DNA of 64,000 bases from positions 1 to 64,000 of the forward strand of contig JAUNVM010000005.1 of assembly GCA_030537635.1 (NCBI GenBank), read 5' to 3'. The translations under genes were made by a program, and so were the position numbers. The first letter of the stretch is position 1, and the number at the start of each line of letters is the position of its first letter. A model generated the notes under the pieces. The model ran no database searches. It was not told where the DNA came from and saw only the letters and a program-made list of their open reading frames with translations. This DNA comes from Flaviflexus sp. (GTDB taxonomy: Bacteria; Actinomycetota; Actinomycetes; Actinomycetales; Actinomycetaceae). Shown piece after piece: positions 4,712-7,079 of the stretch.

Positions 4712-6229
4712 CTAGTGGGCGAAGTGTCGCCTGCCGGTGAAGTACATGGAGATGCCGGCGGCCTTCGCGGCCTCGATCACCTCATCATCGCGGATTGATC
4801 CACCCGGCTGAACGACCGCCGTAACACCCGCCCGGGCGAGCTCCTCGAGCCCATCGGCAAAGGGGAAGAACGCATCGGAGGCGGCCACCGCCCCGCGGGC
4901 CCGCTCTTCGCCCTCGCCGAGCGTGTTCGCTCGCTGAACGGCAAGCCGGCAGGAATCCACCCGGTTGACCTGGCCCATGCCGACGCCGACGGCGGCACCG
5001 CCCGCCGCGAGAAGAATCGCATTGGAGCGCACCGAACGCACCGAACGCCAGGCAAAGTCGAGATCCGCAAGCGTCTCCTCATCGGCCTGCGGACCGGCCA
5101 CGTGGGACCAGCTGGCCGGCTCATCTCCCGCCTCGTAACGGTCGCGGGCCTGGCGGAGGAAACCACCGGAAATGTGGACGAGCTCGTAGGTGTCCCACTC
5201 CGGATCGACCTTGAGGATGCGAAGGTTCTTCTTCTGCTGGAGGATCTCCAGCGCCTCCTCGGTGTAGTCGGGGGCGGCAATGACTTCGGTGAAAATGGGG
5301 CGCACCTGCCTGGCCATCTCCTCCGTCACCGTTCGGTTCGCGGCAATCACCCCGCCGTAGGCGGAGACCGGATCGCAGGCGTGGGCGGACAGATGAGCAT
5401 CGGCAATGCTGTCGGCCGAGGCGATTCCGCACGGATTGCAATGCTTGATGACGGCGACGGTCGGCCGGGCGTGATCGTAGGCGGCTCGCAGCGCCGCATC
5501 GGTGTCCCGGTAGTTGTTGTAGCTCATCTCCTTGCCCCCCAATTGGGTGGCCGCGGCAAGCCCACTACCCGAAGAGATGAGTTCGGCGGCCTGATGCGGG
5601 TTCTCACCGTAGCGCAGAGACCGCGTGGGGGTGAGCGCGGCCTCAAGCGAGCCCGCGGTATCGGCGCCGAGCCAGCTGGCAATCTGGGTGTCGTAGGCGG
5701 CCGTATGTGCGAAGGCCACCCCCGCCATTGATGCCCGCATGGTCGCGTCAATGCTCCCGGAATTGAGAGCTTCGATGATCTCGGGATACTGGGCCGGGCT
5801 CGTGACCACGAGAACCGAATCGTGGTTCTTTGCCGCCGCGCGGATCATCGTTGGCCCACCAATGTCGATCTGCTCAATGCATTCGGCTCGCTCCGCCCCG
5901 CTCGCCACGGTCTGCGAGAACGGGTAGAGATTGCACACGACGATGTCGATGGGGGTGATCTGCCGGTCGGACAGCTCGGCCATGTGCTGCTCCGAGCCCC
6001 GGTTGGCGAGAATGCCGCCGTGAACGATCGGGTGGAGGGTCTTGACCCGCCCGCCGAGGAATTCAGCCGAACCAGTCACCTCTTCCACGCTCGTGACGGT
6101 GAGGCCTTCGTCGGCCAGCAGGCGGCCGGTTGAGCCGGTGGAGATGATGTCATATCCGGCCCGCTCAATCGCGCGAGCGAGATCGGCGACGCCGGTCTTG
6201 TCGTAGACGGAAATGAGGGCGTAGGTCAT
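4712..6229 (-). CDS. purH: Bifunctional AICAR formyltransferase / IMP cyclohydrolase
   Basis: Catalyses the last two steps of de novo IMP synthesis, formylating AICAR (ZMP) with 10-formyl-THF and closing the ring. The 505-residue length matches the family. The cyclohydrolase domain (about 1-190) opens [10 protein letters not shown] and carries STGSTGRLL and GGRVKTLHP. The formyltransferase domain includes [11 protein letters not shown] and KHCNPCG with the catalytic Lys-His pair. The ATG at 6229 follows AAGGA by 6 bases. An open frame continues upstream to 6685 but runs through the riboswitch and is not coding. Upstream lies a ZTP riboswitch, so expression should rise with the enzyme's own substrate. 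Confidence 0.97.
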
Positions 6230-6261
6230 GTGGGGTCCTTCGATGGCTCTCCCACCGCCAT
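6230..6261 (-). promoter_or_regulatory. Ribosome-site region of purH with competing hairpins
   Basis: Two short inverted repeats share this stretch. GTGGG (6251-6255) can pair with CCCAC (6230-6234), enclosing the AAGGA ribosome site at 6236-6240 and ending next to the start codon. ATGGC (6257-6261) can instead pair with GCCAT (6243-6247), leaving the ribosome site free. This looks like the expression platform of the riboswitch. It is inferred from sequence only. Confidence 0.5.
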
Positions 6262-6331
6262 GCCCAGGCGTGCGACGCGATGGTCCCGATCGCTCCCCGG
6301 TGGTTGTCCACCTTCCGCGCCAGTCGCGATC
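6261..6331 (-). ncRNA. ZTP (pfl-type) riboswitch upstream of purH
   Basis: The transcribed strand carries the hallmarks of the ZTP/ZMP-sensing pfl RNA. GATCGC (6326-6331) pairs with GCGATC (6288-6293). The sequence GCGACTGGCG is followed by a GGTGG/CCACC hairpin, then GGGGAGCG, then the conserved 3' block CGCCTGGGCA (6261-6270). GGCG in the upper loop can form a pseudoknot with CGCC of the 3' block. This class is known upstream of purH, folate and one-carbon genes. It ends 31 bases before the purH ATG, so translational control is likely. Confidence 0.88.
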
Positions 6332-6337
6332 ACCGCC

Positions 6338-6343
6338 AGTGTA
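6338..6343 (-). promoter_or_regulatory. Putative -10 box of the purH riboswitch transcript
   Basis: TACACT on the minus strand lies 6 bases before the first paired base of the riboswitch, so a transcript from here would start with the aptamer. The -35 region is poor. Confidence 0.4.
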
Positions 6344-6446
6344 ACGGCAAGCGGGCCCGGTGTGGGAGCGATGTCGCACAGTGACACGCCGATGGGAACT
6401 GCAGCGCAGGTCCGCCCCGGCCGCGCTCTGGCAAAGCCTGGTCGGT

Positions 6447-7079
6447 TCAGGCGCCGGCGGGTCGGGCGCGCCGACCCTCGATGGTCCAGCCCCGCCTGGA
6501 CATCTGCCCCACCTGCTCAACAAGCTGGGCGCGCTCGGATTCCTTGATCCGCTCCAGCAGGCTGTCCTCCGTGTCATCGTCGGCGACCTCAACTGCACAC
6601 TGGGCGATGATCGGACCGGTATCAACCCCGCCGTCAACGATAAACAGGGTGGCCCCGGCGATCCGCACCCCATAGGCCAGAGCATCGGCCGGACCGTGAA
6701 TGCCCGGGAAGGCGGGCAGCAGCGAGTTGTGCGTGTTGATGATCCGGCCTGGGAAGGCCGACAACACCTCGGTGCCGAGCAGCTTGAGGAAGCCGGCCGA
6801 CACCACGAGATCCGGGGCCGCCTGGCCTAAGGTGAGGGCGATCTGACGATCCCAGCTCTCCCGATCCGGATGATCGGCAAGATCAATGACGGCCGTGGGA
6901 ATTCCCGCCCGCCGAGCATGCTCCTCGGCTCCGGTACCCGCCCGATCGGTGAGCACGAGAACCACCTCGGCCCCGTAGGCGGGATCTTCGCAGGCCGCCA
7001 TGAGGGCCGCAGCATTTGATCCACCGCCGGAGGCGAGAACTGCCAGCCGAGCCGGAGCGGAAGGGGCGGGAATTCTCAT
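6447..7079 (-). CDS. purN: Phosphoribosylglycinamide formyltransferase
   Basis: Transfers a formyl group from 10-formyl-THF to GAR in purine synthesis. It is 210 residues, as expected for PurN. The N-terminus has the phosphate-binding LASGGGSN. The active-site block reads [13 protein letters not shown] (N and H kept; the usual HP is HN here), and GGVDTGPII carries the catalytic Asp. The ATG overlaps the perM stop as ATGA, indicating translational coupling. The 217-base gap before purH holds the riboswitch, so purH can be expressed separately from purN. Confidence 0.95.

Follow-up and report, generated by a model that had tools for sequence, protein, structure and literature searches.

A candidate translational ON switch of the ZMP/ZTP class before purH in an actinobacterium

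Judged by its sequence, the minus-strand element at 6337-6255 of the window (the whole stretch of 64,000 nucleotides that was analysed) is a real and ordinary ZTP riboswitch, a predicted sensor of ZMP/ZTP. The folding models point to a switch that probably turns the translation of purH on: P3 and its extension P3b, locked by the ligand, would break a hairpin that covers the start site. What the relatives have kept is this lengthened stem of the aptamer itself, not a pair of hairpins downstream. I also propose, tentatively and with slightly less than even confidence, that the genus carries a variant of the ZTP class. The bulged 7-bp extension of P3 would be the switching strand of the platform. 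The aptamer and the translational platform would then merge into a single uninterrupted stem, leaving the OFF hairpin free to shift its register from one species to the next. Such a compact translational switch on purH in an actinobacterium is of interest beside the open literature consulted, which treats transcriptional ZTP switches; a search of the paper library gave no paper naming both the ZTP riboswitch and Actinobacteria.

The aptamer, its target gene and the predicted transcript start

A reading of the sequence alone had recognised a pfl/ZTP aptamer here and had proposed a covariance-model check of the minus strand. In a search of the 64 kb, the Rfam model RF01750 (ZMP/ZTP, pfl) matched 6337-6255 over its full length (model positions 1-86) with 52.7 bits, above the gathering threshold of 39 (E 1e-5). 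It is the single copy in the 2.15-Mb genome. The helices P1, P2 and P3 are retained in six genus members, with 100% of the cells paired. P1 (6331-6326 with 6293-6288) has four of its six pairs changed on both sides, and some pairs of P2 (6312-6308 with 6303-6299) are also changed on both sides. The inner pairs of P3 (6276-6274 with 6264-6262, from the Rfam alignment) are invariant in the genus. The J1/2-L3 pseudoknot, whose letters were verified as GGCG (6321-6318) with CGCC (6270-6267), shows no covariation because it is invariant in the six members.

The gene that follows at 6229-4712 (minus strand) is purH, encoding AICAR formyltransferase / IMP cyclohydrolase. It matches TIGR00355 with 534.9 bits (cut-off 528) and NF002049 with 679.3 bits (cut-off 402), which confirms the target named in the sequence-only reading, and the start at 6229. 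The AAGGA ribosome-binding site that this reading had noted is present at 6240-6236, 6 nt 5′ of the ATG, and 25 nt lie between the end of the aptamer and the purH start. Upstream on the same strand is purN (6447-7079; TIGR00639, 190.3 bits), whose stop codon lies about 110 nt before the aptamer. Of 213 family genomes, 177 have an RF01750 match. All six genus members examined have one too, and in each of them it is followed by purH. Other named relatives with the aptamer in front of purH include Cellulomonas, Terrabacter and Pseudactinotalea. Since its discovery, purH has been among the commonest targets of the motif, and activation by the ligand was predicted there (Weinberg et al. 2010, PMC2864571). 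Thus, the class and the target gene are ordinary.

Two genera of the family (g2 and g4) have no RF01750 match in 8 of 8 genomes, although one or two matches per genome are usual in the family. One genome (G080, locus L038) has two near-identical ZTP aptamers in tandem before purH (G080:C75 38988-39067 and 38811-38890). They are split by a run of N; the pair may be a genuine tandem switch or an artefact of the assembly. In another genome (G059, locus L039), only about 14 nt lie between the conserved aptamer GGGC and the purH start; therefore, a ribosome site of any kind would have to lie at least partly within the P3 region.

A -10-like element, TACACT, is found at 6343-6338 on the minus strand. 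In the genus, TANNNT ends 6-7 nt 5′ of P1, and it occurs in the same short interval, at matching spacing, in 50 of 52 leaders with an aptamer hit, against a background of 3.8%. A scan for the two-hexamer sigma-70 consensus gave no promoter match for the purH leader. Because the element sits just before P1, the transcript probably starts at or beside the first base of P1, near 6331. In the five other genus members (L031, L032, L034, L035 and L036), the place of purN upstream of the riboswitch is taken by a gene for a repeat-rich protein with a terminal LPxTG-like sorting signal. The stop codon of this gene, TAG or TAA, doubles as the first three bases of the -10 element.

A conserved extension of P3

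P3 is extended by a 7-bp helix, P3b, formed by 6283-6277 (CCAUCGC) with 6258-6252 (GCGGUGG) and separated from P3 by a 3-nt bulge (AUG, 6261-6259). Six leaders of the genus were aligned; no gap occurs between P1 and a point 9 nt beyond the aptamer. In this alignment P3b occupies columns 63-69 and 88-94, and the bulge occupies columns 85-87 with variable letters. Pairing is kept in 41 of 42 cells (97.6%), with compensatory changes on both sides at four of the seven pairs. The strands are CUACCGC/GCGGUAG in G096, CCGCUGC/GCAGCGG in G098, CCGCUGC/GCAGUGG in G100 and CUGCCGU/ACGGUGG in G099, and there is one mismatch in G097. The covariation score is 0.562 against 0.371 in shuffled alignments, and only 1 of 500 shuffles reaches 0.562. 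When the partner strand was slid, the score was at most 0.257 and pairing fell from 97.6% to 62% or less. RNAalifold recovered P3b from the six leaders with no structure supplied. Tested singly, the pairing energy is significant against shuffles (p < 0.05) in one of the six sequences only. Over these six related sequences, P3b is a conserved helix, while 6258-6252 is the proposed switching strand. This 3′ strand holds most of the 5′ arm (6255-6251) of a predicted hairpin over the ribosome site.

A model that includes P3b scores 102-109 bits inside the genus and at most 58 bits outside it. Among the genomes searched, the 7-bp P3b with its 3-nt bulge is, by sequence, confined to the genus. The matches of this model in other genera were rejected as further cases of P3b, since their alignments cover the aptamer only. 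Other genera lengthen P3 in their own ways (L047, L059, L042).

The predicted start-site hairpin and the readings of the switch

Since no terminator-like site was found in 6100-6500, control of translation is suggested, and the position of the platform and this absence both support the translational platform of the earlier reading. In the proposed mechanism, ZMP or ZTP would stabilise the pseudoknot and P3, as is known for the class. P3/P3b would then hold 6258-6252 and the start region would be open. When the ligand is absent, the same strand would pair with 6234-6230 in a helix that is predicted to continue over the start codon and to enclose AAGGA and the AUG; the invading strand downstream would here be 6234-6230 together with the first codons. 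PurH consumes ZMP, so purH would be made when its substrate accumulates. This is the ON logic that the sequence-only reading had proposed for purH, and it is supported.

The core of the proposed OFF state is hairpin B (6255-6251 with 6234-6230), which is predicted to reach across the start codon and on into the first codons. In folding ensembles, whose model leaves out the pseudoknot and the ligand, hairpin B has a probability of about 0.97 when P1 and P2 are formed and P3 is open. When P3 is formed, hairpin B drops to 0.12 and P3b takes 0.72-0.75. For the U of the AUG, the unpaired probability rises from 0.29 to 0.83, and for the G from 0.12 to 0.59. The model keeps both G of AAGGA mostly paired whether P3 is open or forced to form, so the predicted change lies mainly at the AUG. 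Either the model or the claim is weak at this point. Computed again without pseudoknot and ligand, the local ON stem has -12.5 to -14.0 kcal/mol, against -15.7 kcal/mol for the OFF segment. The two energies are close enough that the ligand could decide between them.

For this sequence, folding agrees with ligand activation through competition with P3. The register of the sequestering hairpin, however, varies between the six species of the genus and is not conserved. In G098, the AUG is mostly paired in every modelled state. Complementarity between the switching strand and the start region was rejected as proof of the OFF state, since across the genus it does not exceed that of shuffled sequences (mean z -0.34; p 0.30 for the window). 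The OFF half of the mechanism is a prediction because the register differs among the six species and the strength does not exceed that of shuffles.

In sister genera, the 3′ strand of P3 itself may pair with the start region, sometimes strikingly: the pairing spans 10 bp in L018, and in L037 it spans 7 bp. In L018 and L016, this strand and the bases that follow (GGCGUCAAGC in L018) show 10 bp of complementarity with the start region GCUUGAUGUC. Read from the letters, this pairing is a very plain translational ZTP platform.

Two other explanations are unlikely, to about the same degree. The first is an anti-sequestor formed by a third hairpin, C, a 6-bp stem of 6257-6252 (CGGUGG) with 6246-6241 (CCAUCG). 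It would exclude hairpin B through shared bases, leave AAGGA free and form first during transcription. Hairpin C is the most stable local hairpin (-7.2 kcal/mol), and for transcripts that end at 6230-6225 its probability is 0.98-0.99. In contrast, it dominates only for ends at about 6230-6220 and gives way to hairpin B once the first codons are transcribed, and inspection of the genus leaders by eye showed no equivalent. It also excludes P3b, so the ligand would oppose it. Hairpin C is best seen as a transient of the time when the leader is made. The second is control of transcription: an open P3 would expose the leader to termination, Rho-dependent or of another kind. The switches of the ZTP class described in PMC7337938 and PMC10085676 do act on transcription, but in addition to the lack of a terminator-like site there is no U tract after the hairpins, and the distance from the aptamer to the AUG is short.

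The sequence-only reading had placed two competing 5-bp hairpins at the start site: hairpin A (6261-6257 with 6247-6243), which would leave the ribosome site free, and hairpin B, which would close around it, with the ligand choosing between them. Both Watson-Crick arms of each exist, and hairpin B is populated in folding. When the 32-nt stretch was shuffled around a fixed AAGGA, 27% of the shuffles have some 5-bp hairpin, 17% have one closing around the site and 0.6% have a site-closing hairpin with one upstream, the last figure being biased because the test was chosen after the pattern had been seen. On the other hand, A and B share no base, so they are not exclusive in that sense. The 5′ arm of B lies in the loop of A and its 3′ arm lies outside, so the two cross and exclude each other only as nested helices; loop lengths permit that they could in principle coexist as an H-type pseudoknot. 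Hairpin A has a probability of 0.01 or less in every ensemble and is outcompeted locally by hairpin C (-7.2 against -5.3 kcal/mol). It is paired in 48% of the genus cells against 97.6% for P3b, and in G097 the predicted partner of the equivalent arm is the start codon itself. Hairpin A was thus ruled out as the ON state and judged non-functional, and a choice between A and B, to which little ties the ligand, is very improbable. From the earlier platform, the arms and hairpin B as the OFF core stand, while the conserved competitor of B is P3/P3b, so that the preferred contest is P3/P3b against the extended hairpin B.

Comparison with known ZTP switches

The purH leader shares all helices, the letters of the pseudoknot and the purH target with the RF01750 class. 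It differs in the lack of an intrinsic terminator and in the 7 bp by which P3 continues past a 3-nt bulge in this genus. In the ZTP class, the ligand stabilises the pseudoknot and P3 and stops a downstream strand from opening P3 (PMC7337938, PMC10085676). The transcriptional switches of Clostridium beijerinckii pfl and Thermosinus carboxydivorans likewise set a downstream strand against P3, with invasion blocked by the ligand (PMC10085676, PMC7337938). They form a terminator, whereas the competing hairpin in the purH leader is predicted to cover the translation start, and their P3 is described as short, unlike P3/P3b here. The same aptamer is found in ZTP leaders of sister genera and of further Actinobacteria (for example Cellulomonas, Terrabacter and Pseudactinotalea), where it precedes purH or another gene. 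Several of them extend P3 or pair its 3′ strand with the start region, but they do so without the bulged 7-bp P3b.
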